This document shows, piece after piece, positions 13,054 through 32,672 of a DNA stretch of 64,000 bases. The stretch is from positions 1 to 64,000 of the forward strand of contig JANXRE010000071.1 in NCBI GenBank assembly GCA_025353165.1, read 5' to 3'. The notes under the pieces were generated by a model. It made no database searches. It was not told where the DNA came from and worked only from the letters and a program-made list of their open reading frames with translations. Both the position numbers and the translations under genes were made by a program. Origin of the DNA: Acidobacteriota bacterium. Lineage in GTDB: Bacteria > Acidobacteriota > Terriglobia > Bryobacterales > Bryobacteraceae. Numbering within the stretch: position 1 is the stretch's first letter; each line of letters begins with the position of its first letter.

Positions 13054-13057
13054 GAAC

Positions 13058-14077: not shown

Positions 14078-14108
14078 AACTCGTTTCAAAAAGTATTGAT
14101 CTTCGCTT

Positions 14109-14118: not shown

Positions 14119-14169
14119 TACACTGGCCAAAATCGCCTAGGAGTCTGAGAGAGCCAAGGAGCACAGCCC

Positions 14170-17409: not shown

Positions 17410-18117
17410 CGGAGTTGGGCCGCGGATGAACGCGAATTTTTGCGGGAGCTGAGCCGGGCGATTCGTACATTCAGGAGGATGTTCCGAACCCGTGCCCATT
17501 AGGCCACCGGCGCACGCCCGAAACTTACCCCGGGGAACTCGGAGTGCGACATTGTTGAAAGAACTTCGCCGACCGTAGCCCGGATGGTGGCTACCATGAG
17601 GCGGACTCCTTGTCTGTTCATTAACGGACCTGGGGCGATGGGAGCCTTCGATTTACGCTTGAGGTGCTGCTGCAGGCTCCGAGCCGAGGGTTTCGTAGCG
17701 GAGCAGCTCAACGGAGAGGCTGAGAAACTCGGCCGAACCACACGGCAGGTGGGCGATTTCGGCGAGGAACGGTTGATTGCCGCCCTGAAGGAGCATCACG
17801 GGTGCCCCGCTTCCGAGGCAATGGAGGCGACTGTCCGCGAGGAGCAGGAGCGCGTCGGCCCGCAACCAGGCGACCAGGCCGACGACTTGACGGATCAGGA
17901 TTCCCGGCCCCGCTGTATTGGCTTACGGAATGTGGCGGCTGTATCGCAGCGAGTCCTCGCGGCCCCAGTCGCAGCGTCGGTGATCGGGAGGCTACCACAC
18001 GGCTCGGCGGCCTCAAGTTGGGCTCTTGGAGATGTACCGAGTGGCCGCAGGCCCGGGCCGCTCTCCTGAATCGGCTCGGTTTAGCTGTTGTTGGGCGTTA
18101 AGTGCCATTATCGCTAG
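17410..18117. other. Degenerate stretch at the left edge of the mobile island
   Basis: About 700 bases without a convincing gene. A minus-strand frame near 17653-17920 (Leu-rich, ending RYETLGSEPAAAPQA) and another at 17499-17741 look weakly protein-like but lack good starts and recognisable motifs. They are best read as eroded coding sequence. No terminator hairpin was identified after the TonB receptor. Confidence 0.4.
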
Positions 18118-18408
18118 CTAGGTATTTCGTTCGGCAGAATCGCCGCCGCCAATGGCCGCTGCACGCATGCGCCCGGCCTCTACCGGGAAGCTGGCGATGA
18201 ACGCTTCCAAATCCCCGTCGCTCAGGCCTTCCCGGCCGCCGTCGAGGTGAACGATTTCCGTCAGAGCTCCCTTTGCATCTATCCGCCTGGTGCAAGTGGA
18301 GTTGGCCAGGTTCGCGGGACCATACACGCTTTGAATCACCACTCGAAAGCTCTCCCCGGACTCCCCTCTCCGTCGCTCCAGAGCTTTGAGTCTCGCTTTG
18401 AGATTGAT
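18118..18408 (-). pseudogene. Small phage-like protein, second of a tandem pair, no clear start
   Basis: The frame INLKARLKALERRRGESGES followed by FRVVIQSVYGPANLANSTCTRR and a Glu/Asp-rich tail looks coding for about 96 residues but has no ATG, GTG or TTG at its natural beginning. It resembles the upstream gene (NRRLDRLEARATPSGTPLEFEIQFV), suggesting tandem duplication and then loss of the start, or a frameshift joining the two. Function unknown. An acidic C-terminus and an N-terminal coiled-coil-like helix are all that can be seen. Confidence 0.4.
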
Positions 18409-18617
18409 GGTAGCCCTTCTACCGGAAGCGCCGACCGCTCTTGCCCGCTTCCCTCGTTGTCTTGCCGTTCCTGTCGACCGCCCCCGACGAAAAGCGTGCT
18501 CGACACGGCTCCCGTCTGGGCGCACACAAACTGAATCTCGAACTCTAACGGGGTGCCGGAAGGCGTGGCACGGGCCTCCAGGCGGTCCAGTCGCCGATTG
18601 AGGTTCCTGCCCATCAT
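18336..18617 (-). CDS. Small phage-like hypothetical protein
   Basis: 93 residues beginning MMGRNLNRRLDRLEARATPS, a basic helix, then LEFEIQFVCAQTGAVSSTLFVGG. Its ATG overlaps the stop of the HTH gene upstream (ATGA), so the two are co-translated. The C-terminal third (after about residue 55) is low-complexity and may be out of the ancestral frame, because the paralogous frame resumes in the next reading frame. I do not recognise a family. Confidence 0.5.
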   Translation of the reverse strand: MMGRNLNRRLDRLEARATPSGTPLEFEIQFVCAQTGAVSSTLFVGGGRQERQDNEGSGQERSALPVEGLPSISKRDSKLWSDGEGSPGRAFEW

Positions 18618-19009
18618 CTGCGTGTCCCCTTCGACACCTCCGCAGCGCGTTCCAATTCCGCCACGCGCGCCTCGACATCTTCCAATTCGATAGCCTTGGC
18701 CCCGTGTGTCAAAACCAAGTCGGCGGCCCGGAGCCGCGTGGAGGCTGGTGTGTGCTGATCCACCATGATCTTCAGCACAGAGGAGACAGCCTCGCCCGAC
18801 GCCTGCTGCAACCGCGCCGTGCCTTGCCCGAACGCAACGCGGCGCGCCCTCCGATAGGCCGTGTCGAATTCCGGGTCCTTGAGCCATCGCCAAAGCGTTC
18901 TGGGTGGGACCTTGGCAGCATGAGCCGCTTCGTCCACGCTCCGGTTGGAGAGGAGGGCGGTAATGGCTTCTTGCTGTTTGGGCTTCAATTCTGTGCCATT
19001 TCGCGCCAT
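18614..19009 (-). CDS. HTH protein resembling phage terminase small subunit
   Basis: 131 residues. LKPKQQEAITALLSNRSVDEAAHAAKVPPRTLWRWLKD is a clear helix-turn-helix with the recognition helix PPRTLWRWL, followed by a helical tail (RRARRVAFGQGTARLQQAS, then a Glu-rich end). This architecture is common in phage small terminase-like or transposon-associated DNA-binding proteins. No large terminase is adjacent, so its present role is unknown. It heads a small operon with the two tandem small proteins and supports a prophage origin for this part of the island. Confidence 0.6.
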   Translation of the reverse strand: MARNGTELKPKQQEAITALLSNRSVDEAAHAAKVPPRTLWRWLKDPEFDTAYRRARRVAFGQGTARLQQASGEAVSSVLKIMVDQHTPASTRLRAADLVLTHGAKAIELEDVEARVAELERAAEVSKGTRR

Positions 19010-19180
19010 TTACTGCCACCTGGATGGTTCGTCAGCCTTCAGAATCGACCCCTCGCCAACCCCCCATCGCCAAGCCATTCGCCAACGTCGATTTGGAGCA
19101 GAATAGCCATGCTTTTCAAGCACTTCGGAGTGATCCATGTCCATGACCGCGCGGAAGCGCGGAATATAAGGAGATTGCAA

Positions 19181-19861
19181 ATGAGAACGTTCACCATCGA
19201 CAACGAGAACAACATCAGCGTGTTCGCCACCCAAGAGGAGGCCACCGCCGCAACCACGACACCCTTCGACAGCTTCACCAGCCAGCAGGAACTTGGAAAA
19301 CTGGCTGCGGTATGGCCCATTGGACGACTGGCGGAGGTTTGGAACGGCTTCGCCGGAGTGGCCCCGTTTGGCGACCTGAAGCCGGTCACGAAGTTCACGG
19401 ACCGAAAAACGGCGATCAAGCGCATCTGGACCGTCATCCAGAAGCTGGCGGAAGCTGCAGAAATGGAACAGCAACGCGCTGGCATTCGAGACGCGGAAAC
19501 GAAACTGAAAGCCGCGCAGCAGGGGAACGCGATTGCCCCCGCCGCGCCACAGGCGGCCGACGTTGCGCCGCTGAAGGGACGGGCGAGTAAGAAGGCCACC
19601 CCTGCGAAGGCCGCGCCCAAGGGCCAGAAAGCCGCCAAGGCGCAGGAAGCCGGCGCGCCGCGCGAGGGGAGCAAGACTGCTCAGGTTGTGGCAATGCTGG
19701 AACGAGAGGGCGGAGCTACCCTGGCCGAGATCATGGAGAAAATGGGCTGGCAGCGGCACACGGTCCGCGGGTTCATGGCCGGTGCCATGAAAAAAGCCGG
19801 TCACATCGTCGAGTCCTTCAAGCCCGAGGGCGGGGAGCGCACGTACCGGATCACCAAGTAG
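19181..19861 (+). CDS. DUF3489 domain protein
   Basis: 226 residues. A strong AAGGAG eight bases before ATG 19181 decides the start over an in-frame ATG at 19109. The N-terminal half (FTIDNENNISVFATQEEA, WPIGRLAEVWNGFAGVAPFGDLKPVTKFTDRKTAIKRIW) is followed by an Ala/Lys-rich linker (about 125-165). The C-terminal DUF3489 domain (SKTAQVVAMLEREGGATLAEIMEKMGWQRHTVRGFMAGAMKK) looks like a winged helix. Such proteins are frequent on phages and integrative elements. Function unknown, probably DNA binding. A good terminator follows. Confidence 0.75.
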   Translation: MRTFTIDNENNISVFATQEEATAATTTPFDSFTSQQELGKLAAVWPIGRLAEVWNGFAGVAPFGDLKPVTKFTDRKTAIKRIWTVIQKLAEAAEMEQQRAGIRDAETKLKAAQQGNAIAPAAPQAADVAPLKGRASKKATPAKAAPKGQKAAKAQEAGAPREGSKTAQVVAMLEREGGATLAEIMEKMGWQRHTVRGFMAGAMKKAGHIVESFKPEGGERTYRITK

Positions 19862-19863
19862 CA

Positions 19864-20348
19864 TCAACCCCCTCGCTTCCGCCCGCCCGGCTCCGGCCGC
19901 GGCGGGCTTTTTCTGCTTCTGGGCCCACGCATTTCCCGTGGTTGGCCAACAACGCCAGCGGCCTCGGGGCGCGCGGCTGTTTTGTCTGGGTCAGCGATCG
20001 AGCGATCACAGCACGGCCGTTCTGGAGGTCCGCCCACCGAAGTGCCAGCACTTCGCCGCGGCGCGCACCAGTCGCGGCGCACATTTCTAAGAACATCGAG
20101 AGGCACCACGGGCCGCTGGCGCCCTCCAGAACAAGCTGCTGCTGAACCGGAGTGAGGGCAATCCCCCTCCGTTTCTTCGGGACCGACGGTTCGCTGGCCG
20201 TTACGGGATTCACAGTGACGAGCCCCCACTTATTTGTCGAGCGAGAGGATTTCAAGAAACTGTTCGGCGTGCGTTTGGCAGCTGCAAATCCCGCCCTCTC
20301 ACGGCCGTCATGCACCGCGGAGGGCGCTGATGCACCTGCGTACGGCAT
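19864..20348 (-). pseudogene. Tyrosine recombinase/integrase remnant
   Basis: The frame contains NPVTASEPSVPKKRRGIALTP followed by MFLEMCAATGARRGEVLALRWADLQN, the hallmark box I of tyrosine integrases including the first catalytic Arg (GARRGE). After SLTQTKQPR the frame degenerates, and the His-x-x-Arg box and the catalytic Tyr are missing. The N-terminal arm is also absent or shifted. This is a truncated integrase, consistent with a dead integrative element. Overlap with the terminator region suggests the 3' half was replaced. Confidence 0.7.
19881..19912 (+). terminator. Rho-independent terminator after the DUF3489 gene
   Basis: The stem GCCCGCC (19881-19887) pairs with GGCGGGC (19901-19907) and is followed by TTTTT. 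It lies 20 bases after the stop codon. Confidence 0.75.
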
Positions 20349-20596
20349 TCCGGTGGCGGTCTGACGTACAAGTCCTTCCGAAGGGCGCTAACTGGGCCGC
20401 CGGAACCGCTGGTCTCGTCTGCTCCACCTTGGTTTGGGCGGCCGTAAAGCGGGCCACTCAAGGTATGCAGCCCAGGCTCGATCTCGGTGGGCCGGTCTCA
20501 GCCATCCCTGCGGAGCGGGCCCGCGCGCAGACCGCCGTACGTGCAATAATTCGGGCAGAAGTGGACCTGAGCTTTTTAGGGAGCCGTGTTCGTAAA

Positions 20597-21643
20597 GTGG
20601 AATCGCATCTTTTGATGACCGGGTCAACAGGCGCGATTGGACGTCGTTGGCTACCGTTGCTGCTTGCAGCCGACGAATCGCGCCACGTTACGCTTCTGGT
20701 TCGCGACCCTGGCGCAGCATTCAAACATGCGCGCGTCTCGGTGATTACCGGGGACGTGCGAACTCCACAGTTGAGTCTCGATCGTGCCATTTGGGATTCG
20801 TTGGCGAACACGATCACCGAGATTGTGCATTGCGCCGCCGATATTCGGTTCACCCGCCCGATTGAAGACGCGCGCGTCGTCAACACAGCCGGTACCCGCA
20901 CGATGCTCAGCCTTGCGCGGCAGGCGAGAAGACTGAAGCGCTTCGCACACCTCAGCACGACCTACATAATGGGTCGAGATCAGGGTGAACTTCCGGAGTC
21001 GCAGTATCGCAATTCCAGCGGCTTCGTCAACACGTATGAGCAGGCGAAGTATGAAGCCGAAGGCGAGGCGTTTGCTGCCATGCGCGACATTCCCACGGCT
21101 GTATTTCGTCTCAGCTCAGTTGCTTCAACGCAGACCAATTATTTCCATCAGGCTCTTCGGCTGATTCCGCGCAATCCATTCCCGCTCATGCCCGGCGTCG
21201 CGGATTGTCGGATCGATCTAATATCTGAAGCGTGGGCGGTCGGCACGCTTTCGCGTCTTTTCGAGCGACATTTTCGCACTGGCGCGGTGTATCACGTCTG
21301 TGCCGGTCCAAGGGCCTCGATTCCCGTCAGTAATCTTTTGGAATTGGCGTTCGCCGCTATGGGCGGTGCCCGGCGGCCGGCGATGGTGCCTCTGAAAGAC
21401 TTCGAGCGGTTTACCGCGCACTTCCTGCGTAACGGAGAGCGAGAGGCGATGAAAGCGATTCTCCGGTCGGTTTCGTCGTTCCTGCCGCATCTGGCGATTG
21501 ACCAGACGTTTCAGAACGCCGCCACGATGGCACTGCTGAAGGACGACAACATTGCTCTTTGCGATAGCTTAGAGGTGGTGCGCGGCGTACTCTCGCTCGC
21601 CTCAACGGACATGCCGATACCAGCGAGCCAGTCGATACGGTGA
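20597..21643 (+). CDS. SDR reductase of the thioester-reductase / NAD_binding_4 type
   Basis: 348 residues from GTG 20597, directly before HLLMTGSTGAIGRRWLPLLLAA, the GxxGxxG NAD(P) motif. VHCAADIRFT, HLSTTYIMG and YEQAKYEAE (active-site Tyr-x-x-x-Lys) match the extended SDR group containing fatty-acyl/thioester reductases. It has no carrier or adenylation domain, so it is a stand-alone reductase or epimerase. It converges on the glycosyltransferase with a 42-bp overlap of coding 3' ends. It is the first gene of the island cargo. Upstream 20349-20596 shows no gene. Confidence 0.7.
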   Translation: MESHLLMTGSTGAIGRRWLPLLLAADESRHVTLLVRDPGAAFKHARVSVITGDVRTPQLSLDRAIWDSLANTITEIVHCAADIRFTRPIEDARVVNTAGTRTMLSLARQARRLKRFAHLSTTYIMGRDQGELPESQYRNSSGFVNTYEQAKYEAEGEAFAAMRDIPTAVFRLSSVASTQTNYFHQALRLIPRNPFPLMPGVADCRIDLISEAWAVGTLSRLFERHFRTGAVYHVCAGPRASIPVSNLLELAFAAMGGARRPAMVPLKDFERFTAHFLRNGEREAMKAILRSVSSFLPHLAIDQTFQNAATMALLKDDNIALCDSLEVVRGVLSLASTDMPIPASQSIR

Positions 21644-22282
21644 AACTCCCGCCCAATACAGGACTTGCAGCGTGATCCAGAGCGCCCATACTCTCGCATA
21701 CCTTGGTCCCGCGAACCGGCGTGCCGATGTAAAGATCCGCGTCTCGAGGTGAACGAACTTTCCATGCCGCTTCATGCGCCGGATCAGATCCAAATCCTCA
21801 AACAGCGGGAAAGGGCGGCATCCGCCCATAGCTTCGTAACCAGACCGCCTGATGAAAATGCCCGCATCACCATAGCTCAATCCGAGCCATCGAAGGTAGG
21901 GATAAATGGCGGTCATCTGCCGCGCGGAATAGTGTTCACCCTCAAAAACCAACCAGAAGTTACCGCCGATCACGGCACTGTCGCTCAGGGCGTTAGCGAT
22001 CGCTTCGAGCGCTCCGGGTTCCGGACGGCTGTCGGCGTGCACAAACCACAAGACATCGCCCCTTGCCTCAGCCGCCGCGGTTCGAATTTGGTAGCCGCGA
22101 CCGCGTTGGGACGACACAACGCGAACTCCCAGTTCCACCGCAATGGCGGGCGTGCGGTCTTCACTGCCTCCGTCGGCGATCAGAATCTCCTTCTCACCCG
22201 GCAACGCTTGCAGTGTTCGGATGGTTTCGGCAATAGCTGCCTCTTCGTTCAGCGTTGGCACAACAATGCTTACCAATGTCAC
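21602..22282 (-). CDS. TIGR04283-family glycosyltransferase (arsenosugar-associated, GT2)
   Basis: 226 residues from GTG 22282. LVSIVVPTLNEEAAIAETI and EILIADGGSEDRTPAIA form the nucleotide-sugar site, VLWFVHADSRPEPGALEAI carries a DxD-like HAD, and FPLFEDLDLIRRMKRHGKF is the acceptor-side motif of this subfamily. A C-terminal hydrophobic helix (VWALWITLQVLYWAGV) ends in basic residues. TIGR04283 members cluster with arsenosugar genes in many bacteria, though biochemical proof is thin. It is divergent from its usual partner TIGR04282, 28 bp away. Confidence 0.85.
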   Translation of the reverse strand: MTLVSIVVPTLNEEAAIAETIRTLQALPGEKEILIADGGSEDRTPAIAVELGVRVVSSQRGRGYQIRTAAAEARGDVLWFVHADSRPEPGALEAIANALSDSAVIGGNFWLVFEGEHYSARQMTAIYPYLRWLGLSYGDAGIFIRRSGYEAMGGCRPFPLFEDLDLIRRMKRHGKFVHLETRIFTSARRFAGPRYARVWALWITLQVLYWAGVSPYRLARWYRHVR

Positions 22283-22310
22283 TCTAAAGTTCTCAGGATG
22301 AAAGTCGTAA

Positions 22311-22946
22311 ATGCTCCGTGCCCTTCTCATTATATTTGCTAAGGCTCCCATCGCGGGGCGAGCAAAAACCCGGCTTTGCCCACCGTTGACACCCGTTGAG
22401 GCGGCCGATCTGCACTCTGCGCTCCTGATGGACATGGTCAACATGCTGATGTCGTTGGATAGCTCCATCAATGTGGAACTATCAACGGATGTTCCGACAG
22501 ACGCCTGGCCGGGTCTCGCGTTGACCAGATCGATCCAGATCGAAGGCGACCTCGGAGCGCGGTTGTTCCACGCGCTGAAGCAGGGACTCTCGACGGGAAG
22601 CGAAATCGTAATGGTGCTTGGAAGCGATTCTCCGGGTTTGCCGCCCGCGCACGTCACCGAGCTGCTTCGCTCCAGTGCGGACGTTACACTTGGCCCAACA
22701 CTTGATGGCGGTTTTTTTGCCATCGCCTGCCGCGCTGTTCGCCAGGAAATGTTTTCGGGCGTTCGCTGGTCGTCCGAATGCGCGCTGGCTGATGTTGTGC
22801 GACAGGCGTCGGCGTGCGGCTTAACCGTCGCCGTTGGACCTTCATGGTTTGACGTGGATGTGGAAACGGATTTGCTTCGGCTGCTGGACATGCCCGATTT
22901 ACAGCAAAACACGGCCGTCTGGGCGCGGAGACATCGAGAGCGATGA
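22311..22946 (+). CDS. TIGR04282-family (DUF2064) glycosyltransferase-like protein
   Basis: 211 residues. The start MLRALLIIFAKAPIAGRAKTRLCPPLTP is the nucleotide-binding loop of the family (FAKAPxxGxxKTRL). MVLGSDSPGLPPAHVTELL (Asp-Ser-Pro) and VTLGPTLDGGFFAIACR are equally diagnostic. The fold is GT-A, related to nucleotidyltransferases, and it is almost always paired with TIGR04283 as here. ATGA overlap couples it to the sterol-desaturase-like gene. Predicted role: sugar or sugar-phosphate transfer in synthesis of a modified sugar, arsenosugar being the known association. Confidence 0.87.
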   Translation: MLRALLIIFAKAPIAGRAKTRLCPPLTPVEAADLHSALLMDMVNMLMSLDSSINVELSTDVPTDAWPGLALTRSIQIEGDLGARLFHALKQGLSTGSEIVMVLGSDSPGLPPAHVTELLRSSADVTLGPTLDGGFFAIACRAVRQEMFSGVRWSSECALADVVRQASACGLTVAVGPSWFDVDVETDLLRLLDMPDLQQNTAVWARRHRER

Positions 22947-23869
22947 GACGACTTTCCCCATGGGCTGTCGGTCCGTTGATTGCCGGTGTCTTTGTTCTGC
23001 TGACTTGGCAAGAAAGACGGCGGCCCCTTCGCAAACGAATTGAGCCCAGCACCGGACACTGCGTTCGCAACCTCGCTATCGCCGGTGTCGGCGCTCTCAC
23101 CATGGTTGTTTTTGAGTCACCGCTCATTCAGCCTCTTGCACGCCTGGTGGAGCAAAGGCGGTGGGGACTCCTGGGCGTTTTTCAATTGCCGGTCTGGGCC
23201 GAAGCCGCCGCCGCGCTTGTCTTGATGGATTATACGTTTTACCTCTGGCACGTACTCTTGCATCGTGTTCTGTTGCTCTGGAGATTCCATGCTGTGCACC
23301 ACGTCGATCTGGACCTTGACACGTCCACGGCGCTCCGCTTCCACTTCGGCGAATTGTTTCTTTCGGTACCGTGGAGAGCGGCCCAGGTGGCACTCATCGG
23401 GCTCAGTCCGTTTACATTTGGCGTATGGCAAGTGTGGTTCGCTCTCTGCGTGATGTTCCACCACTCGAATCTTCGGCTTCCGATCGCGTTGGAGCGCATA
23501 ATCAATAGGGTTCTTGTCACGCCGCGAATGCACGGGGTGCATCACTCGAACCATCCCGAGGAGACGAACAGCAATTGGTCGAGCGGATTGACCATCTGGG
23601 ACTGGCTGCACGGAACTCTTCGGGTGGCTATCCCACAAGTAACTATTGAAATCGGTGTGCCTGCGTATCAGGATGCGAGCAGCGTGGCCTTGCCGAAGCT
23701 GATGCAAATGCCGTTCGAAGATCAGCCGGATTACTGGCGCTCCCGACGGGAGAGAGCCGGAGCTGCGGCCCAGTCCAAAATCCGATCTTCTGCTGCCCTG
23801 ATCTTTCTCAGAACCACAGCTTTGCGCCGAGTTGGAGAACGCGCGGCGGCGACGAACAAGCCGGTTTAG
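22943..23869 (+). CDS. Sterol desaturase / fatty-acid hydroxylase family membrane protein
   Basis: 308 residues with several N-terminal hydrophobic segments. The di-iron histidine clusters are visible: WHVLLHR, FHAVHHVD, MFHHSNLR and MHGVHHSNH, the spacing expected for the FA_hydroxylase superfamily. Such integral membrane oxygenases hydroxylate or desaturate lipids. It is co-translated with the TIGR04282 gene, so it may modify the lipid part of the product, for example a glyco- or arsenolipid. That link is inference. Confidence 0.85.
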   Translation: MRRLSPWAVGPLIAGVFVLLTWQERRRPLRKRIEPSTGHCVRNLAIAGVGALTMVVFESPLIQPLARLVEQRRWGLLGVFQLPVWAEAAAALVLMDYTFYLWHVLLHRVLLLWRFHAVHHVDLDLDTSTALRFHFGELFLSVPWRAAQVALIGLSPFTFGVWQVWFALCVMFHHSNLRLPIALERIINRVLVTPRMHGVHHSNHPEETNSNWSSGLTIWDWLHGTLRVAIPQVTIEIGVPAYQDASSVALPKLMQMPFEDQPDYWRSRRERAGAAAQSKIRSSAALIFLRTTALRRVGERAAATNKPV

Positions 23870-23873
23870 TGGA

Positions 23874-24217
23874 TTAGTCCGTCACCGGACCCTGATAGTT
23901 GACTTGGTTAAACGCATTCTGTGCTTTCAAACGAAGTTGCAGGCGCAAGCCCTCATGAATCGTAAAGGTCCGGAACAATGACAGGTCGGCGCTACGGTAC
24001 CCATCGCCTCGCACGATGTTGCGTCCGCTGTTGCCGAAGATGCCAAGTGCGGGAAGCGTGAAATTCGCGGAATTGTAACGAGTCCTGGTACCGGCGCCGC
24101 ATGAATTCCTGGCACAATATTCAACTGGTTGTATGCTTCATTGCGATATGGATCGAACTGGCTTGTATACGTGAACGGCTGTCCGGACTGAAGAGTAACG
24201 AGCCCATTGAGAAGCAT
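23874..24217 (-). pseudogene. C-terminal fragment of an Oar-like TonB receptor
   Basis: The minus strand encodes LQSGQPFTYTSQFDPYRNEAYNQL, then after a frameshift FTLPALGIFGNSGRNIVRGD, YRSADLSLFRTFTI and LQLRLKAQNAFNQVNYQGPVT before TAA at 23876-23874. This matches the last barrel strands of receptors like 14170-17409. The upstream part is missing at the transposase junction near 24220. It is an insertion or deletion scar inside the island. Confidence 0.75.
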
Positions 24218-24220
24218 CCC

Positions 24221-24601
24221 GAAGCCAGTTCCGGATCATCTCCGACAACGGGCCGCAGTGCATCGCGCGAGACCTCAAGGAGTTCAGTCGGATTTCGGGT
24301 ATGACGCACGTGAGAACCTCGCCGTACTATCCGCAATCCAACGGCAAGATCGAACGTTGGCCCAAATCGCTGAAAGGAGAATGCATCCGGCCGGGTACGC
24401 CGTTGACGTCGGAAGACGCGCGGCGGCTCATCCAGGAGTATGTGGACCACTACAATACCGTGCGCCTGCAACAGCGCCAGCGGTTTTGTCACACCTGCGG
24501 ACATGCTGGCGGGGCGCCAGGCGGAGATCCTGGCGGCGCGAGATCGCAGGCTGAAAGAGGCGCGTCAGCAGAGGCAAAAGCGCTGGCAGAAGGCGGCGTG
24601 A
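24221..24601 (+). pseudogene. IS3/IS481-type (rve) transposase C-terminal fragment, frameshifted
   Basis: The frame RIISDNGPQCIARDLKEF, then THVRTSPYYPQSNGKIERW, carries the second Asp region and the catalytic Glu of the DDE integrase core. YVDHYNTVRL is the usual downstream motif. A frameshift near 24478 moves the end (GFVTPADMLAGRQAEILA, RRLKEARQQRQ) to another frame. The N-terminal half is absent, so the copy is inactive. Confidence 0.75.
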
Positions 24602-24770
24602 AAAGTCGAGCTACAATGGCATTGCCAGGTGAAACGGAAGCGGGCTCTGCAGGGATGCAACCATGCCAAGGGATAGCTTGGTGGGCTTATCGAAACGAAG
24701 CTAAGCGCGGGGGTTCGCCTTTCGCCCCAAAACCACATCGGATCGGTAGACCCTAATGCCTTGAAAATCC

Positions 24771-24787
24771 CCGCCCCGAAGGGGCGG
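24771..24787 (+). terminator. Stem-loop in the DUF547 leader
   Basis: CCGCCCC pairs with GGGGCGG around a GAA loop, with no T-run. It may be a relic IS end or a leader hairpin 61 bases before the DUF547 start. Confidence 0.3.
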
Positions 24788-24847
24788 AAACACTTGTTAA
24801 CGGTGGAACGGCCTCTCTCCATTTTCACGCTGAACCGGAACACAACG

Positions 24848-25945
24848 ATGAGCAGAATGCTTGGGCTATTGGGCTGGCTCGCCGTCGGCATTTCGGTCAA
24901 AGGCCAGGACATCGACCATGGAAAGTGGACCGCCCTCCTTCAGAAGTATGTAACGTCACAGTCACGCGTTAACTACGCGCAGCTGAGTTCGGATGGAACC
25001 GGCGATCTCGATAAATACCTCAACGAGATCGCCAAGCCGTGGCCGGAGAGAATGGACGCGGACGCTACCGAAGCAGCGTTGATCGACGCCTACAACGCCT
25101 TGACTGTGCGTTGGATCGTATCGAATTTCCCGGTAGCGAGCATCTGGAGAACTCATGGTCCGTTTCGCATCGCGCGCCACAAGGTGGACGGGAAACTCGA
25201 GTCGCTCGACAGCATCGAAACCCGCCTCCGGAATATGGGCGACCCTCGCATTCATGGCGCGCTGGTCTGTGCCGCCCGAAGTTGCCCGCCTCTTCGGCGG
25301 GAGGCGTACGCGAAGCCGACGTTGAATGATCAACTTGACGACAACCTCCGTGCGTGGCTGGCCGAGCCATCTCGTAATCAGTTTCTGCCGGATAGACAGT
25401 TGGCAAAGGTGAGCAAGATATTCCAATGGTATGCGGGGGACTTCCAGAAAATCGGCGGCGTACCGGCGGTTCTCGAAAGATTTGCGCCGCCAAACTCCTT
25501 CGCGATCTCGAACAAACTGGAATACCAGAAATACAACTGGGGCCTGAACGACAGCGGTTCGGTGGGGGCCGCGTATTCCGGATTCGACTTCTATATTGAC
25601 TATGTCCGGAATGGATACCTGGTCTCTGATATCAAGGGTTGGTTTCTTGGACTTGGGGAGCGTTACGGCGTGAACCCCCTGATCTTCGGCAGCATTTATG
25701 TGGGTGCGATTCCATTCTTCTCGTTATCGATCGCGTGGCTAGTCCGCAATCTGCGGCGCGGACGGTCGGCTGTCGCGCCTCTGCTTTCCGCGGCATTCTT
25801 TTTTGTCTCCGCGTACCTGTACCTACTCGTCGCAGGCCAGAACATTCCCGTTTGGGTCTATATCGTAATCGCCGGGATGCTTGCGTTCGGCGTCTGGTCG
25901 ACGGTCCGCAAGGTGCTTAGCCAAGTGGGCCGGAGGGCCGCATGA
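24848..25945 (+). CDS. DUF547 domain membrane protein
   Basis: 365 residues. A signal peptide (MSRMLGLLGWLAVGISVKGQ) precedes DUF547 (about 20-240). Conserved signatures are SQSRVNYAQL, AALIDAYNALTVRWIVSNFPVASI, IHGALVCAARSCPPLRREAY (conserved Cys pair) and RKFLPD-like NQFLPDRQ. Beyond the domain, YNWGLND is followed by three C-terminal transmembrane helices (about 290-355). DUF547 has no assigned activity, and the conserved His/Cys suggest an enzyme. ATGA overlap couples it to the flavoprotein gene, a pairing that suggests joint redox work at the membrane. Confidence 0.8.
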   Translation: MSRMLGLLGWLAVGISVKGQDIDHGKWTALLQKYVTSQSRVNYAQLSSDGTGDLDKYLNEIAKPWPERMDADATEAALIDAYNALTVRWIVSNFPVASIWRTHGPFRIARHKVDGKLESLDSIETRLRNMGDPRIHGALVCAARSCPPLRREAYAKPTLNDQLDDNLRAWLAEPSRNQFLPDRQLAKVSKIFQWYAGDFQKIGGVPAVLERFAPPNSFAISNKLEYQKYNWGLNDSGSVGAAYSGFDFYIDYVRNGYLVSDIKGWFLGLGERYGVNPLIFGSIYVGAIPFFSLSIAWLVRNLRRGRSAVAPLLSAAFFFVSAYLYLLVAGQNIPVWVYIVIAGMLAFGVWSTVRKVLSQVGRRAA

Positions 25946-27402
25946 CCACGGATTACGACATGGTCGTGATTGGCGGAGGAGCGGCGGGCCTGACCGCCGC
26001 GGGCATGTCGGCTGTTTTGGGAGCCAAAACTGCTCTCATTTCCGACGACAAGTTAGGCGGCGATTGCACTTGGCAGGGATGCGTTCCGAGCAAGAGCCTG
26101 CTGAAGGCCGCCAAGGTTGCGCACGCGATGCGCTCCGCCGCAAAGTACGGTCTGGAGCCGTCGAATGTCTCACATGAATGGCTGCGGATCATCGAGCGGG
26201 TCCACGCGATTCGCGAGGACGTGTACGAAGGTGCGGACGCGCCCCCGAACATGGAAAAGCTGGGCGTCGAAGTGATCGCGGCGCAGGCTCGCTTCGTGGA
26301 TCGCAATTCAGTCGAGATAACCTCTTCAGAGACCGCGGGCAGGCGGGTCGTAACATCGCGCTATTTCATCATTGCGACTGGGAGCAGACCAGACATCCCG
26401 AAAATTGAAGGTATGGATCGTGTACAGGTCCTGACGAACGAGATACTGTTCGAACTCAAGGAAAGGCCGCAGCGTTTGCTGGTATTGGGAGCGGGACCGG
26501 TCGGGGTCGAAATGGCCCAGGCTTTTCAACGGCTTGGTTCCAGCGTGACGGTTGTTGGCCGCTCGGCCAGAATTCTCGAACGCGACGACCGGGAACTCGC
26601 AACGATGTTGAGGAAGTGTTTGGAAGTCGAAGGCGTGGGGCTGCGGCTGGGCGAGCAGATCGAACGATTCGAACCGGGCTTGGCGCATCTTAAGAGTGGC
26701 GAAACCGTTCCTCTGGACGCAGTGCTGGTGGCTGCGGGACGACGGCCGAATGTGGAAAGTCTCCAACTGCAAGCCGCTGGCGTCAGCGCGACGGAAAAAG
26801 GCATCACGGTTGACCGCCATTGCCGGACCAACGTAAACAATGTCTTTGCCTGCGGGGACGTCACCGGAAAATTTCTATTCACTCACATGGCCGAGCACAC
26901 CGCCAAGGTCGCGGTCATGAATGCGATTTTGCGCGTGCCCGCGTCGACGAAGAATGACCGGGTCTGCTGGTGCACCTTCACCGATCCTGAATTGGCTCAT
27001 ACGGGGCTGGGCGAGGAGGAACTTCGAAAACGAGGCAAGAAGTTTCAGGTTTACCGGTTTCCGTTTTCCAGGCTCGATCGGGCAATCACCGAGTCAGAAT
27101 CTACCGGTCTGGTGAAGGTATTCGCAAATTCCAGGGGTAAAGTTCTGGGTGCTTCGATCCTCGGCGCGCAGGCCGGCGAGATGATCGCAGAGTACGCACT
27201 GGCAATCGAGGCGAAAGCCGGTTTGGGGACTATCTCCTCCACCATTCATCCGTACCCGACCTATGCGCTAGGAAACCGGAGAGCCGCCGATACCTTTGCC
27301 ACGAAGGTGCTAACGCCTTCGCGAGTTGCCTGGATCAGGCGCATTTTCCGGCTCCGCGGCAGCACTCAGGGAATCGTCAGCCTGCGGCACTCTGTCGATT
27401 AA
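25942..27402 (+). CDS. MerA/Lpd-like pyridine nucleotide-disulfide oxidoreductase
   Basis: 486 residues. FAD motif: DMVVIGGGAAGLTAAGMSAVLG. The redox-active pair is in GGDCTWQGCVPSKSLLKAA (CxxxxC with the unusual TWQG spacer). NAD motif: RLLVLGAGPVGVEMAQAF. FAD signature: VFACGDVTG. C-terminal His-Glu partner motif: STIHPYPTYAL. There is no heavy-metal-associated N-terminal domain and no C-terminal Cys pair, so true mercuric reductase activity is doubtful. It is translationally coupled to the DUF547 membrane protein. Confidence 0.88.
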   Translation: MTTDYDMVVIGGGAAGLTAAGMSAVLGAKTALISDDKLGGDCTWQGCVPSKSLLKAAKVAHAMRSAAKYGLEPSNVSHEWLRIIERVHAIREDVYEGADAPPNMEKLGVEVIAAQARFVDRNSVEITSSETAGRRVVTSRYFIIATGSRPDIPKIEGMDRVQVLTNEILFELKERPQRLLVLGAGPVGVEMAQAFQRLGSSVTVVGRSARILERDDRELATMLRKCLEVEGVGLRLGEQIERFEPGLAHLKSGETVPLDAVLVAAGRRPNVESLQLQAAGVSATEKGITVDRHCRTNVNNVFACGDVTGKFLFTHMAEHTAKVAVMNAILRVPASTKNDRVCWCTFTDPELAHTGLGEEELRKRGKKFQVYRFPFSRLDRAITESESTGLVKVFANSRGKVLGASILGAQAGEMIAEYALAIEAKAGLGTISSTIHPYPTYALGNRRAADTFATKVLTPSRVAWIRRIFRLRGSTQGIVSLRHSVD

Positions 27403-27418
27403 TAAGAGACTTCATCAA

Positions 27419-28093
27419 ATGGCCAGGATTATTGTTTTCGATGTGAACGAGACATTGCTGGACGTGCAGACCCTCAGTCCGTACTTCGAACATATGTTCG
27501 GGGATAAGAACGCGTTGAAGGAGTGGTTTTCGCTTCTCCTCCTGCACTCCGAAGCCGCCACGCTTGCCGGTCCGTACTTCGAGTTCGGCACGCTGGCCGG
27601 GGCCACTCTCGATATGGTCGGCGCCGCCCGGTCGCAGCCGGTTGCGGAGGCCGAAAAGAAGAGAATCCTCGAAGCCATCCTCCATCTGCCGCCTCATTCG
27701 GAAGTGAAACAGGCACTCGGTATCCTGAAGAACGCGGGATTGCGGATGGTTACCCTCACCAACTCCAGCCAGAAAGCGGTTGAGCAGCAGGTGCATCATG
27801 CCGGCCTGACGGAGTTCTTTGAAAAGAACTTCTCAGTGGATTCGATCAAGCGTTACAAGCCCGCGCCCGAAACCTACCGCATGGTTGCCGCCGGCCTCGG
27901 AGTCGAGATCGGGCAACTCCGCCTCGTGGCTGCTCATGCCTGGGACATTCTGGGTGCGATGCAGGCTGGTTGCTCCGCTGCATTCGTCGCGCGAAAAGGC
28001 CAGAGCTTGTTTCCACTGGTAAAACCGCCGGATGTAATTGGTTCTGACCTCAGCGCCGTAGCCGAACGAATTATACTTCGCGAAAAGGGCTAG
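27419..28093 (+). CDS. HAD-superfamily hydrolase, haloacid dehalogenase type II
   Basis: 224 residues. Motif I is IIVFDVNETLLDV with nucleophile Asp. The cap helix follows (FSLLLLHSEAATLAGPYFEFGTLA), motif II is MVTLTNSS, motif III Lys lies in RYKPAPETYRM, and motif IV is LVAAHAWDILGAMQAGC. DVNETLLD and HAWDxxGA are typical of L-2-haloacid dehalogenases, but related enzymes dephosphorylate sugars. It lies 16 bases after the flavoprotein stop. Phosphosugar phosphatase is an equally plausible role in this cluster. Confidence 0.85.
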   Translation: MARIIVFDVNETLLDVQTLSPYFEHMFGDKNALKEWFSLLLLHSEAATLAGPYFEFGTLAGATLDMVGAARSQPVAEAEKKRILEAILHLPPHSEVKQALGILKNAGLRMVTLTNSSQKAVEQQVHHAGLTEFFEKNFSVDSIKRYKPAPETYRMVAAGLGVEIGQLRLVAAHAWDILGAMQAGCSAAFVARKGQSLFPLVKPPDVIGSDLSAVAERIILREKG

Positions 28094-28100
28094 ACGCAAG

Positions 28101-29048
28101 TTACTCGTGCTTTGCCAGCAGTCTCAATAGAGAGTCATGGAACGAGGCCGGCGCCTCGGAGCAGTAGAGCGCAGCTTGCTGTAAGACGATTGAGCGGCGA
28201 ACGAGCAGATATGGTTTCCGCCGACCGCCGGGTCCGGCAACTGTGTCGTCCGGGAGCTCCTCGATGCGCACTTGGAGCCGATCACATCGAAAGCCATCAG
28301 GTGAAATGGCATATCCGACCGCTAGCGTGTCGAAGGGGTTGAAGCCCTCGGCGGCAAGGCTGTCCTGCCAATACACGAGCCAATCCTCCGCGGCATCGAG
28401 TACCCATGCGAGTGAGACATCGGACGATCGAAGATTGGCTAAATCTGCCCCACGCATCCAAACCTTGGACGAGATCTCCCACGGCGCCAGCACCAGTGCA
28501 ACGTGCGAATCCAGGAGGACCTGAAAGCTTGGTGCATCCAATTCGAAATTGAAATCGCGGAACGCCGGGGCGCGCGAGGAAGTGGAAAATCTCTGGTTCG
28601 GCCGTCTGCCAGCCACCGCCACGATCTTCTTGATGCGATTTCGAAGCTCCGGATGATTGCGTAAAACCGTTGCCACGTTGGTCGCTGGTCCCAGCATCAC
28701 GATCGTCATTTTTTCACGGCGTAGCGCGGCGGCCAATGCTCGGGAAGCGTCTGTTTCCACTCCGAGATCGTTCGCGGACGCGGCCCCGCTCGCTACCTTC
28801 AACCCCGGCGGACCGAAGTCGCGGACCAGGCGCTGTGCGATGGGGAAGGCCGCGCTAAGGGGAGCGTTGCCGAAAACCACGCTGACGCCGCGAACCTTAA
28901 GCGCCGACGAATGAAATGCCTGAACCAGCGCAAGGCCGTCATCCACTTCATGACCACCCCGAGCGACGGAGGGATCCGTGTCGATCCAAACCGGAACGGA
29001 TGCGCAAGCCAAGCCTCCCGCCATCAGCATCAGGAGCATGGCTTTCAT
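28101..29048 (-). CDS. Exported nucleoside hydrolase (IUNH family)
   Basis: 315 residues. A signal peptide (MKAMLLMLMAGGLACAS) is followed by VWIDTDPSVARGGHEVDDGLALVQAF, the calcium-binding aspartate motif in a variant form. MTIVMLGPATNVATVLRNHPEL and RNHPEL/KIVAVAG further match the family. NFELDAPSFQVLL replaces the usual NxxxDPEAA segment. It cleaves N-glycosidic bonds of ribonucleosides or analogues. ATGA overlap with the kinase upstream implies one function. The export signal is odd beside a kinase, as kinases need cytosolic ATP. Confidence 0.8.
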   Translation of the reverse strand: MKAMLLMLMAGGLACASVPVWIDTDPSVARGGHEVDDGLALVQAFHSSALKVRGVSVVFGNAPLSAAFPIAQRLVRDFGPPGLKVASGAASANDLGVETDASRALAAALRREKMTIVMLGPATNVATVLRNHPELRNRIKKIVAVAGRRPNQRFSTSSRAPAFRDFNFELDAPSFQVLLDSHVALVLAPWEISSKVWMRGADLANLRSSDVSLAWVLDAAEDWLVYWQDSLAAEGFNPFDTLAVGYAISPDGFRCDRLQVRIEELPDDTVAGPGGRRKPYLLVRRSIVLQQAALYCSEAPASFHDSLLRLLAKHE

Positions 29049-30073
29049 GCTGCGCGGCCTTTTGTAACCAATGCCCCCGATAATTGCAAGAATTCCGCTT
29101 TGCGCTCCAAGCTGAACTTCGCCGGAAGCTGAGCGACGCCGATCAACCGGCGCATGATTTCAACGCCCGCGAACTGCAGGGCGAGACTGCGGTCCAACGA
29201 AGCGACTTCGGCGTAGCGTGAGAAAAGGCCATTGATCGATGATGGCGATTGTCCGGCGAAGTATAGGTGAGCAGCCATAACCCCCAGATCCCATTCCGGC
29301 GGCCCGTAGAAACAGAACTCCGGGTCGATGACGTACACGCTTTGCCGGGCTCTCAGCCAGCTTCCTGGGAAGAAGTCCCCATGGATGAGGCAGACACCGC
29401 GCGATATGTTCAGGTACCGCTCACCAAGCGAGCTAACTTCGCCGCAGTACGTGGGGTCAGCTTGCAAACGGATCGCCAGTGCGGAGAGTCCTGGCGTGAT
29501 TGCATCCAGATCCAGTCCATTATCTTTGCGGAGCGGGAGCGCAAAGACGTGCTCGTGATTTAGTATGCGCATCTCGGTGTTGGGGAATGCGCCAGCAATC
29601 TCGGGGCCTCGCAAGGACGTGTGGAGTGCACCGAGGAAATGGATCAGACCGTTAAACTCCGGCTCTTCCAGCCGCCTCCCCCCGTCCGAGTAGAGGAAGG
29701 TGAAATCCTGTGCCTCGCCCAGGTCTTCTACCATCAGCAGGCGCTCTTTGGAGTCGAAGCCGAGCAACTTTGGCAGATACTTCGCGACCGTTTGCCGCGA
29801 CTCGACTTCTCGATAGAAGCGGGCCTCCATTAGTGCCCGATCCCAAGGCGCGGCAATACCCGGATACTTCTCAACCCAAGGTCTCGATTGCTTCAAAATG
29901 AACGAGCGCCGGGATGTCACGGCCCGCAGCACACAATTCATATTGCCTTCGCCAGCAGGCGAGATTGTCTCGACAACTTCATTCGGCATCAACCAATCCA
30001 TGGAGGAAAGGTACGCCGCGACTGTGAGAACGTCAGCCGTAAGGAAGAAATTTCCTGCAAATACAGCTGTCAT
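29045..30073 (-). CDS. Phosphotransferase resembling methylthioribose kinase (MtnK-like)
   Basis: 342 residues of APH-like kinase fold. The ATP-binding Lys lies in SFILKQSRPW. The catalytic loop is LIHGDFFPGSWL, and the metal motif is VYVIDPEFCFYGPPEWDLGVMAAHL. IDPEF-FYGP--DLG is the signature separating methylthioribose kinases from general APH enzymes. MtnK phosphorylates methylthioribose at C1 in methionine salvage. It is coupled to a nucleoside hydrolase, so the pair could process MTA-like nucleosides, including 5'-arsinoyl analogues. ATG 30073 overlaps the preceding stop (ATGA). Confidence 0.75.
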   Translation of the reverse strand: MTAVFAGNFFLTADVLTVAAYLSSMDWLMPNEVVETISPAGEGNMNCVLRAVTSRRSFILKQSRPWVEKYPGIAAPWDRALMEARFYREVESRQTVAKYLPKLLGFDSKERLLMVEDLGEAQDFTFLYSDGGRRLEEPEFNGLIHFLGALHTSLRGPEIAGAFPNTEMRILNHEHVFALPLRKDNGLDLDAITPGLSALAIRLQADPTYCGEVSSLGERYLNISRGVCLIHGDFFPGSWLRARQSVYVIDPEFCFYGPPEWDLGVMAAHLYFAGQSPSSINGLFSRYAEVASLDRSLALQFAGVEIMRRLIGVAQLPAKFSLERKAEFLQLSGALVTKGRAA

Positions 30074-30510
30074 TTCTTGCGCCGCAGTTTCTCGCCGTCG
30101 CTCTCGTGAGACGACCACGTTTGATCCACGTTCAGTCCCAACTCCTGCTGCTGATTTGGTGACGAATTTTTCGGCGGAAGCCCCGCGCACATTCTGCGCA
30201 TTCTAATGTCCCGCCAAAACAGTTGCGCGTCGCGGAGCAGGTGCTGCGGCGCCTGGTATCCTTCCACCCGCCAAACTGATGTCGTTCCTGTCGAGGATCA
30301 TGCAGAGAATATTACACCATTAGTTGGCGCGTGCTTCCGACTGAAGCCATTTGCTGCAAGTTCTCCAGAGCGAAGGACTCGAGATGATTGTCGCCATTCA
30401 TGTACGACCATCACGGTCCAGGATGCCTGAACAAGCTCCGCGTTAGCGCATCCGATATCGGCGCACCAAATGGCAGCGAACAATAAAAGTGATCCGGCGG
30501 CAATTCGCAA
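30070..30510 (-). pseudogene. Exported hypothetical protein with an in-frame TGA
   Basis: A TTG start at 30510 has a strong GGGAGGG eight bases upstream and encodes a signal peptide (MRIAAGSLLLFAAIWCADIGCANA). The same frame continues for 146 codons to TGA at 30072-30070, overlapping the kinase ATG, but holds TGA at 30300-30298 (codon 71). After it come SSTGTTSVWRVEGYQAPQHL and a basic tail. Either this is a recent nonsense mutation or two short genes. No family is recognised, and the residues around the TGA (FSA, SST) are not selenoprotein-like. Confidence 0.4.
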
Positions 30511-30570
30511 GGATCATCCCTCCCAGGCGACCCATGCCTTTCTAGTTCTGACTTTGGCACTTAATAATAA

Positions 30571-30590
30571 GTAATTGATTAGCGGGTCGA
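30571..30590 (+). repeat. Left terminal inverted repeat of the IS66 element
   Basis: GTAATTGATTAGCGGGTCGA is a perfect 20-base complement of 32017-32036. Confidence 0.9.
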
Positions 30591-30657
30591 TGGAGGCTGT
30601 AGGCGCGAGGACGAAATTAATCCTTGTGTGTAAACCAGAATCGTTCCAAGATGTCGT

Positions 30658-32028
30658 ATGGCCGATCTGGAATCGCTGAGCCGGGAGGATCTGATCGCAG
30701 TGCTCAGGGACCAGCAGCAGTTGATCGCGGAACTGCGGGCCGAGATCGAACGGCTGAAGCGGTCGCAACATGGGTCGGCCGCTCCCTTCTCCAAGGGGCA
30801 GCGAAAGTCTGATCCGCAAAGACCCGGCCGCAAACCTGGACAAGGGCCATTCCTGCGTCGGGGCGCACCGGCGCAAGGGCCCAGTGAGACGGTGATGGCG
30901 CAGCTTCCGGCGAACTGCCCGGCCTGCGGCGGGCCGCTGCAGTTGGAGGTCGAAGAAGTGGCCACGATCACAGAGTTGCCGGTGAATCCGCAGCCCGTGG
31001 TGACCGCCTATCGGGTTCCGCTGTGCCGATGTCAACAATGCGGCAAGCGGGTACGGGGAACAGCGCCCGGCTTAGCGGCGGATCAGACCGGAGCCACTGC
31101 GCACCGGGTTGGGCCGGGAGTGATGGCTGCGGCCCACGCGCTGCACTACGGAGTGGGGATACCGGTGAGAAAGGTACCGTCGGTGCTGCGCGAGTTGACC
31201 GGAGTGTCACTGACGCAGAGCGCTGTGACCCAGGATGGGTTGCGTCGAGCAGCGGGGCCCGTGGGGGCGGCTTATGAAAAGTTGAGGTGCGCAGTGGGCG
31301 AGGCTCCCGTGGTGTACTCCGACGACACGGGCTGGCGGGTCGGAGGCCAGGCGGCGTTTCTCATGGGGTTCGATACGGAACAGGCATCGGTGTATCAGAT
31401 TCGCCCTCGGCATCGTAACCAAGAAGTTCGCGAGATCGTCCCTGGCGACTACCAGGGGCTGCTGGTGAGCGACCGAGGCAAGAGCTACGATGCCGAGGAG
31501 TTGGCCGGCCTCAAGCAGCAAAAATGCCTGTCCCACCTGCTGCGGAATGTGACTGATGTGGTGGAGTCCAAACAGGGCCGGGCACGCCAGTTCGGAGCCA
31601 CGCTGAAGGTTCTGCTGCGAGCGGGGTTGACGCTGTGGCATGCGCGTGGCGACCTCTGCGCGCAAGACTTTCAGTCTCGATCCCGGCAACTGAATCAGCA
31701 ACTGACCCATCATCTCCGCATCCGTGTTCTGCTGGACGGGGATAACCAGCGTCTGCTGGACGGAATTGGGCTCCAGCAAAATCGGGGACGCCTGCTTCGG
31801 TTCCTGGAAGTAGAGGGTGTTGAGCCGGCCAACAATCGCGCCGAGCGCATGCTTCGGCCAGCGGTCATCGCCCGCAAGGTGTCTCAGTGTTCAAAGAACA
31901 AGGCCGGAGCCGATGCCTTTGCTGCCTTCCTGAGTGTAACTCAAACAATCCGTGAGACCGCCCGGACAAGCATTTCCCAAGGACTACTCGCACTCTTCTT
32001 GCAGCCATCGACGGTGTCGACCCGCTAA
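30658..32028 (+). CDS. tnpC: IS66-family transposase
   Basis: 456 residues. An N-terminal coiled coil (LIAVLRDQQQLIAELRAEIERLKR), a zinc-ribbon-like region (CPACGGPLQ, CRCQQCGKRV) and the DDE core follow in the IS66 order. Catalytic segments are VVYSDDTGWRV (first Asp), LLVSDRGKSYDAEE (second Asp) and VEPANNRAERMLRPAV (Glu). The frame is intact, and the gene stops inside the right end region. The element may still be active. A related solo end occurs at 43339. Confidence 0.92.
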   Translation: MADLESLSREDLIAVLRDQQQLIAELRAEIERLKRSQHGSAAPFSKGQRKSDPQRPGRKPGQGPFLRRGAPAQGPSETVMAQLPANCPACGGPLQLEVEEVATITELPVNPQPVVTAYRVPLCRCQQCGKRVRGTAPGLAADQTGATAHRVGPGVMAAAHALHYGVGIPVRKVPSVLRELTGVSLTQSAVTQDGLRRAAGPVGAAYEKLRCAVGEAPVVYSDDTGWRVGGQAAFLMGFDTEQASVYQIRPRHRNQEVREIVPGDYQGLLVSDRGKSYDAEELAGLKQQKCLSHLLRNVTDVVESKQGRARQFGATLKVLLRAGLTLWHARGDLCAQDFQSRSRQLNQQLTHHLRIRVLLDGDNQRLLDGIGLQQNRGRLLRFLEVEGVEPANNRAERMLRPAVIARKVSQCSKNKAGADAFAAFLSVTQTIRETARTSISQGLLALFLQPSTVSTR

Positions 32029-32040: not shown

Positions 32041-32672
32041 ATAAACGATAATGCGCGCCGCATGGCGGAAGAAGGCGCGGGCAATCGTGAGCATATGTCG
32101 GCGACCTGGCAAGTCATTGCCAGGTATCAGAATCACCTCACGACCCCGCAGCGTTGCGGTGTACTCGGCAGCCACGCCGCTGAAGCTCCGCCGGCATTCG
32201 TTGTTGCGACGAAACCCTGTGCGCGAAGAGTCTCGGCGTCTTTTTCACCTTCCACAACGAACACGATCGGTGCTTCCAGAACCTCGCGCAAGTGATATAG
32301 GACCTGGCGCTTTGCTTTCTTGTTTATCCAATTGCCCTGCCCGTCAGGATGTCGCTGGAAGAACCCTTTCGGCTCGGTGCGAACCACCTGAAAAAGCACC
32401 TGGCCGACCTCGTCCCTGTAATCGTACGTCGCCGCGACGGCGGACCGGTCAACCCGCTGGACGCGCTGACGCTCCGGCCAGAGACCACGGGCGTCCAGCG
32501 CCTCGATTACCCTGCGTTGATCGCAACCCGCGTGGCAATGCACCAGAACCTTGCCGTCAACGTCGCGCAGGCTAAGCGATGGATTCTTGTCCATATGCGC
32601 GGGGCAATACGCCAGCCAGTCTGCGCCCGACTTTCGCCCGTGCAGGCGCGCTGCGATGTCAGCCGCGGTCAA
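32041..32672 (-). pseudogene. Phage/plasmid-type primase (CHC2 zinc finger + TOPRIM) truncated by the IS
   Basis: From a TTG at 32672 the frame gives WLAYCPAHMDKNPSLSLRD and VLVHCHAGCDQRRVIEALDARG, a CHC2-type zinc finger. FVVEGEKDAETLRAQGFVATTNAGGASAAW is the TOPRIM motif. A frameshift near 32165 shifts to EYTATLRGREVILIPGNDLPGR and IARAFFRHAARIIVY, after which the IS end at 32036 cuts it. Such proteins act in phage or plasmid replication. Both frameshift and insertion make it dead. Confidence 0.75.

Follow-up and report, generated by a model that had tools for sequence, protein, structure and literature searches.

In the 64,000-nucleotide stretch of an Acidobacteriota genome analysed here (the window; contig JANXRE010000071.1, family Bryobacteraceae), we have identified nine genes at positions 20597 to 30073 that form one real, conserved unit. 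They include a nucleoside hydrolase, an MtnK-like sugar kinase and proteins of the TIGR04282 and TIGR04283 families, and the cassette is apparently mobile. We tentatively propose, at somewhat less than an even chance, that it makes or remodels a ribose-type glycoside from a nucleoside-like compound. Through it, TIGR04282 and TIGR04283, whose “arsenosugar” names are annotation-derived, are connected with a variant nucleoside hydrolase and a clade of MtnK-like kinases. A literature search, largely of papers outside subscription, returned no description of such a cassette and nothing on TIGR04283 or DUF2064.

Gene content of the cassette

Open reading frame (ORF) calls together with Pfam and NCBIfam profiles recovered all the genes named in a preliminary description of the region, and the ends given there are correct, 20597 being the GTG start of the SDR gene and 30073 the ATG start of the kinase gene. 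The features are as follows.

20597–21643, plus strand: SDR reductase (NAD_binding_4/thioester-reductase-like; domain profile matches; GTG start)
21602–22330, minus strand: TIGR04283 glycosyltransferase (203.8 bits, cut-off 182; start at ATG 22330 or GTG 22282)
22311–22946, plus strand: TIGR04282 protein (DUF2064; CofC-like; TIGR04282 140 bits, cut-off 134; PF01983 CofC 32.3, cut-off 22)
22943–23869, plus strand: membrane hydroxylase-like protein (FA_hydroxylase, PF04116 above cut-off)
24301–24756, plus strand: transposase integrase-core remnant (rve_3), between the hydroxylase and DUF547 genes
24848–25945, plus strand: DUF547 protein (above cut-off; N-terminus signal-like)
25942–27402, plus strand: FAD disulfide oxidoreductase, lipoamide-dehydrogenase/MerA-like (Pyr_redox_2 above cut-off; CTWQGC redox motif), hereafter the flavoprotein
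27419–28093, plus strand: HAD type II hydrolase (TIGR01428 168.7 bits, cut-off 125.4)
28101–29048, minus strand: nucleoside hydrolase with a signal-like N-terminus (PF01156 111.3 bits, cut-off 34.2)
29045–30073, minus strand: MtnK-like sugar kinase of the APH superfamily (TIGR01767 103.5 bits, cut-off 275; ATG start)

The TIGR04283 protein also has weak kinship to glucosyl-3-phosphoglycerate synthase in an NCBIfam profile search. Start and stop codons overlap at three points, where the hydroxylase ATG meets the TIGR04282 stop, the flavoprotein ATG the DUF547 stop and the hydrolase ATG the kinase stop, which suggests coupled gene pairs. The last overlap joins an exported-looking hydrolase to an MtnK-like kinase, as had been described; signal peptides were judged from the sequence by eye throughout.

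Conservation of the cassette in other genomes

All nine families are found collinear with the window in genome G347 (Bryobacterales isolate BP_13), split over two contigs that each terminate inside DUF547, L243 holding SDR to DUF547 and L102 DUF547 to kinase. Intact genes are 67–84% identical to those of the window, and the hydroxylase and DUF547 genes closely adjoin, with no space for the rve_3 remnant.

In another phylum, Flavobacterium frigidarium and Flavobacterium sp. 14A hold 8 of the 9 families inside about 19 kb, one matched at Pfam level only. The F. frigidarium cluster (L237, L255) holds the kinase, hydrolase, MsrA, MsrB, HAD, a GH113-like protein, the flavoprotein, a sigma factor, two GT2-type glycosyltransferases, a possible GT87 protein (below cut-off), an oxidoreductase and an Fe-S protein, and after these TIGR04283 (229 bits), DUF547, FA_hydroxylase and a DUF2064-like protein. 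Identities to the window queries are 43% for the kinase, 31% for the hydrolase, 43% for HAD, 36% for the flavoprotein, 37% for DUF547, 32% for TIGR04283 and 27% for TIGR04282. Kinase, hydrolase, HAD, a TIGR04283-type gene and DUF547 occur together in 8 of 10 Flavobacterium stretches, the other two fetched pieces excluding the pair; the hydroxylase is present in 7 and a TIGR04282-type gene in 5 of the 10, several of which end before those genes. TIGR04283 lies about 14–16 kb from the kinase in L236–L238.

Additional genes accompany the pair in places. GH113-like glycosidases lie by it in genome G104 (L084:2270-3985) and in the Flavobacterium clusters (L237:5797-6876); the family was dropped as a cassette member because it is not in the window. 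MsrA and MsrB were likewise rejected as core members, MsrA being found only in Flavobacterium among the tabulated locus sets.

Linkage of the hydrolase–kinase pair with TIGR04282 and TIGR04283

Among 150 genomes of the order, the window's own included, strong relatives of the kinase (E-value 1e-60 or better) were found in five and strong relatives of the hydrolase in six, namely the five kinase genomes and G149. TIGR04283-like genes (1e-20 or better) are present in 55 and TIGR04282 (1e-15 or better) in 68. The kinase adjoins the hydrolase in all five kinase genomes, four of which carry both TIGR04283 and TIGR04282; G139, which is 88% complete, has neither. The pair, TIGR04283 and DUF547 lie in one same-strand run in G038 and in G133, the latter from the same family as the host.

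A survey of kinase relatives took one genome per species and analysed the best 80 of 192. Gene calls at these loci came from a custom ORF script which may miss or split genes; it masked the window's TIGR04282 in the cross-locus table, the gene being present, and dropped ArsS in L231. In these best 80, the neighbour of the kinase is the hydrolase in 28, an ADP-ribosylglycohydrolase-family protein in 13, and a phosphomannose isomerase in 6; the remaining 33 have no such neighbour. Of the 28 hydrolase-type loci, 16 carry a TIGR04282/04283-type gene no more than 10 kb away, versus 1 of the 52 others (Fisher p = 1.6e-8). Most of the 16 are from Flavobacterium and rest on a DUF2064 protein scoring 79.6 bits for TIGR04282 (cut-off 134). 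With Flavobacterium counted once the figures are 5 of 16 versus 1 of 52 (p = 0.002). The ten Flavobacterium stretches described above belong to close relatives and are taken as a single event. In L104, L132 and L162 the pair is contiguous with TIGR04282/04283-type genes assigned above the NCBI cut-off; in the first two of these the TIGR04282 and TIGR04283 domains are fused, in opposite order.

Genome-wide tests for ArsS and TIGR04283 covered 30 of the 80 genomes, including 26 of the 28 in which the hydrolase adjoins the kinase; the two left out are those of L131 and L175, the former (G133) being part of the order sample. TIGR04283 scores above cut-off in 25 of the 30. Among the hydrolase-type genomes the figure is 23 of 26, or 10 of 13 once Flavobacterium is set aside, versus 1 of 14 control genomes. 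A tree of TIGR04283 was built with most Flavobacterium copies left out and with L124 assigned to the ArsS-linked group. The pair-linked copies are scattered on it and at least four changes are forced by supported branches; the association has been either gained or lost repeatedly. The preliminary description had tied its idea to the pair keeping company with TIGR04282/04283 in other genomes, and this co-occurrence is found in several lineages.

The kinase

In a profile search MtnK is the top match among solved structures (1.8e-27), and the predicted model of the kinase (pLDDT 90.1) aligns with MtnK chains at Z 33.9–36.9 (36.9 being an integrative model), with PsiK at 31.4 and with LxmK at 25.5. 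It shares the GxGNxN, HGDxxxGS, IDPEF and ExxRRxIG motifs with the majority of 8 MtnK references, whereas the 8 APH rows compared do not have them. Yet in a quick tree, where one stop in row L130 was entered as X, the 85 kinase rows form one clade (SH-aLRT 99) apart from the 8 MtnK references (94), and a sample of 199 genomes from the phylum held no kinase above the MtnK cut-off. The kinase is thus predicted to have the fold and catalytic motifs of MtnK while belonging to a separate clade, in line with its 103.5 bits against 275 for TIGR01767. The preliminary description had named a kinase outside the MtnK clade as one of two outcomes that would refute its idea, and the quick tree gives that outcome. 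The pairing of a nucleosidase with a methylthioribose-type kinase holds in kind, by predicted folds and motifs, for a kinase that forms a clade of its own.

Other partners occur inside this clade. A phosphomannose-isomerase-like gene stands beside the kinase in L106, L107, L112, L118, L122 and L156 (Gemmatimonadota and Latescibacterota; L118 is from an uncultured bacterium). In L123, L143, L144, L155, L161 and 8 more loci, from Verrucomicrobiota and Bacteroidota, an ADP-ribosylglycohydrolase-family protein comes after the kinase in place of the nucleoside hydrolase; PF03747 was confirmed for this neighbour in L143 and L155.

The hydrolase

The hydrolase is predicted to have the nucleoside-hydrolase fold (model pLDDT 92.4), N-ribohydrolases leading the fold matches, which include plant NRh, YeiK, RihA and a Trichomonas riboside hydrolase. 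It shares with the inosine-uridine nucleoside hydrolases (PF01156) the DxD, DD, T-N and final D residues, and the positions invariant over 14 rows include D23, D25, D36, D37, T123, N124, D165, N167 and D240. It differs from them in a longer DTDP-DD loop, in a signal-like N-terminus and in F239 and D165, present in all 14 rows in place of the H and E of the one solved enzyme in the alignment; these positions serve the leaving group and the 5'-OH. The protein looks exported. Most pair-linked hydrolases similarly have a signal-like or long leader; those of L124, L162 and L164 do not.

A proposed pathway

MtnK phosphorylates a ribose-type sugar at C1. In the pathway that we propose, the hydrolase would act outside the cytoplasm and split the base from a nucleoside or a riboside, and the freed sugar, plain ribose or a 5-substituted ribose, would enter the cell and be phosphorylated at C1 by the kinase, as by MtnK. 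The CofC-like TIGR04282 protein would then convert the sugar-1-phosphate into a nucleoside-diphosphate (NDP) sugar, which TIGR04283 would pass to an acceptor, while the HAD, hydroxylase, SDR and flavoprotein enzymes may tailor the product. The more specific version, an NDP-ribose-type route, undescribed to our knowledge, in which the pair feeds sugar-1-phosphate to TIGR04282 as nucleotidyltransferase and TIGR04283 as ribosyl transferase, and which in ArsS-bearing lineages such as that of L124 would be the middle of arsenosugar biosynthesis, is a doubtful one. If true, the L124-type steps would link an arsenic nucleoside to the finished glycoside. The cassette offers a short, testable reaction order, and at L124 the steps that follow ArsS could be tested directly.

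Several points weigh against the proposed glycoside pathway, which is built from families, predicted folds and gene linkage. TIGR04282/04283 is missing inside 10 kb from 12 of the 28 hydrolase-type loci, some of them on short contigs, and TIGR04283 is often present without the pair (55 of the 150 order genomes). Since related kinases have other partners (6/80 and 13/80), C1-ribose kinase activity is not assured. An exported hydrolase with a cytosolic kinase would need a sugar importer, and none was identified in the cassette. The putative nucleotidyltransferase role of TIGR04282 comes from its resemblance to CofC, the NCBI name being glycosyltransferase, and HAD, flavoprotein, hydroxylase and SDR are broad families. 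In Flavobacterium the hydroxylase was matched at Pfam level only, and the flavoprotein appears in 3 and the SDR in 0 of the 10 stretches, several of which end before those genes. Finally, the hydrolase of G347 (L102:1545-1916), a metagenome-assembled genome, is internally shortened in frame to 123 amino acids, which reflects genuine gene decay or else an error in the assembly.

Alternative readings of the pair

The genome of the window carries MtnA on another contig (C120; 435 bits, cut-off 279), and plain salvage is therefore the main rival. In that case the pair would recover carbon and adenine from external nucleosides or 5'-deoxynucleosides (MTA, 5'-deoxyadenosine) in a manner resembling the dihydroxyacetone phosphate (DHAP) shunt, with MtnA elsewhere and the glycosyltransferases unrelated; we consider this unlikely, though not strongly so. 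Six genomes that carry the pair or the hydrolase were searched for MtnA; five score above cut-off, and the sixth (G133) has a sub-cut-off match at a contig start. Kinases of the MtnK type that branch separately from the canonical clade use 5-deoxyribose as a substrate (PMC6079011), Escherichia coli with a DHAP shunt grows on 5'-deoxynucleosides (PMC10986504) and Pseudomonas aeruginosa has a periplasmic hydrolase cleaving adenosine (PMC5522865), all of which speak for salvage. Moreover, a TonB receptor adjoins the pair in Flavobacterium, with the DUF2064 protein upstream of it, and in G139 there is an HpcH/HpaI-type aldolase gene some 0.5 kb away from the pair, on the other strand (L085:3313-4218), though it belongs to a family other than that of the DHAP-shunt aldolase. 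Yet no MtnA is found among the neighbours with Pfam/NCBIfam annotation (many neighbours fall outside it), no isomerase or aldolase is among the ten genes annotated at 20234–32028, and salvage leaves the repeated TIGR04282/04283 linkage unexplained.

The logic of a nucleosidase plus a kinase is known from 5-deoxyribose disposal and from the DHAP shunt (PMC6079011 and PMC10986504). The cassette shares it with the DHAP shunt (nucleosidase, MtnK, MtnA and Ald2) and departs from that system by an isomerase outside the cassette and by its linkage to glycosyltransferases. Unlike MtnK and the DrdK of 5-deoxyribose disposal, the cassette kinase, for which the comparison was with MtnK, is paired with a PF01156 hydrolase instead of MtnA and an aldolase.

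The substrate might also be another sugar or a riboside that is not a nucleoside, the pair then being a riboside-hydrolase-like enzyme and an aldose kinase of a wider family whose partners vary by lineage; this we regard as quite unlikely. The hydrolase, the ADP-ribosylglycohydrolase-family protein and phosphomannose isomerase do interchange inside one kinase clade, and both the invariant F and D for the H and E of the solved enzyme and the Trichomonas match are consistent with such a substrate. The kinase fold and motifs are, on the other hand, nearest to MtnK, a ribose C1 kinase.

The arsenosugar question

ArsS is the enzyme known to start arsenosugar synthesis. The ArsS work of Xue et al. 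2019 is cited here after PMC8552651. The preliminary description had read the pair as turning 5'-deoxy-5'-dimethylarsinoyl-adenosine into an arsinoyl-ribose-1-phosphate for arsenosugar glycosyltransferases. Where ArsS is lacking, the arsenic nucleoside would be scavenged. This chain we judge improbable, a shade more so than action on another sugar.

The cassette resembles arsenosugar-type loci (ArsM, ArsS TIGR04167, TIGR04282 and TIGR04283) in its TIGR04282 and TIGR04283, both above cut-off (140/134 and 203.8/182 bits), and other members accompany ArsS elsewhere: ArsS stands with TIGR04283, TIGR04282 and the hydroxylase in L090 and L226, L090 having the flavoprotein as well, and DUF547 lies beside ArsS in L211. 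In addition, the window's TIGR04283 groups with two ArsS-linked ones with moderate support (84/90), and arsM is above cut-off in 6 of 6 genomes tested. Unlike those loci, the cassette adds a hydrolase–kinase–HAD block and its genome is without ArsS. The whole-genome search that had been suggested recovered arsM, on contig C54 (377 bits, cut-off 263) and unlinked to the cassette, and found no ArsS in this 98.4% complete genome (best 31 bits, cut-off 300).

Nor was ArsS found in any of the five kinase-bearing genomes among the 150 of the order (the window's own is one of the five), though 31 of the 150 carry it, or in 25 of the 30 kinase genomes elsewhere (completeness of these not given). Conversely, neither a hydrolase nor a kinase label appears in the 20 ArsS regions (6.5–16 kb) fetched from the 31 ArsS genomes of the order, or at L090. 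In F. tegetincola the ArsS locus and the hydrolase–kinase cluster lie on different contigs with a TIGR04283 in each, which points to separate pathways. Since most pair genomes examined have TIGR04283 and lack ArsS, the “arsenosugar” label may be mistaken or unduly narrow.

The only locus seen to join ArsS with the pair is L124, from Verrucomicrobia. Within about 12 kb it combines ArsS (432 bits) and the kinase with a hydrolase that has no signal peptide and with a TIGR04283-type gene just short of its cut-off (174 bits against 182); a molybdopterin oxidoreductase and a Pit/sulfate-permease-like transporter, both scoring below their cut-offs, are there as well. This arrangement counts for the arsenic chain, and in some lineages the pair may therefore have an arsenosugar role. 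For the window, an arsenic assignment is not supported: it does not follow from the evidence, and an ArsS-made arsenic nucleoside is not required.

Some minor points belong here. The molybdopterin oxidoreductase of L124 (L124:7376-9973) lies between ArsS and the kinase and has formate dehydrogenase and ArrA-type matches, again below cut-offs. A radical-SAM gene by the pair in G038, considered as a substitute for ArsS, proved to be RlmN (354 bits), and mutual exclusion of ArsS and the pair in the order was set aside as the numbers (0/5 versus 31/150) are too few. A hopanoid side-chain role, entertained as an idea, was dropped too.

Mobile setting and flanks

The GC content is 58.0% across 20597–30073 versus 61.9% at 1–20000 and 62.3% at 33000–64000, and mobile-element genes lie on both sides:

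18614–19009, minus strand: transposon-type helix-turn-helix ORF, left flank (PF13022, 31.4 bits, cut-off 27.9)
30658–32028, plus strand: IS66 transposase, right flank (Pfam profile match)
32133–32672, minus strand: primase-like zinc-finger protein, possibly mobile-element derived (CHC2, 25.2 bits, cut-off 24.9)

Chance company of unrelated cargo gathered on a mobile island, which the transposon-type genes in and around the region and the lower GC would fit, is very improbable, being largely refuted by the nine collinear genes of G347 and by the clustering of most of the same families in another phylum.

Between the left mobile-element gene and the cassette is an ORF with a DUF3489 domain (18704–19861). 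Further to the left, at 12884–17409, a LacI-type regulator is followed by a TonB-type outer-membrane receptor, and to the right, at 35548–37383, lies a caspase-domain (Peptidase_C14) protein.

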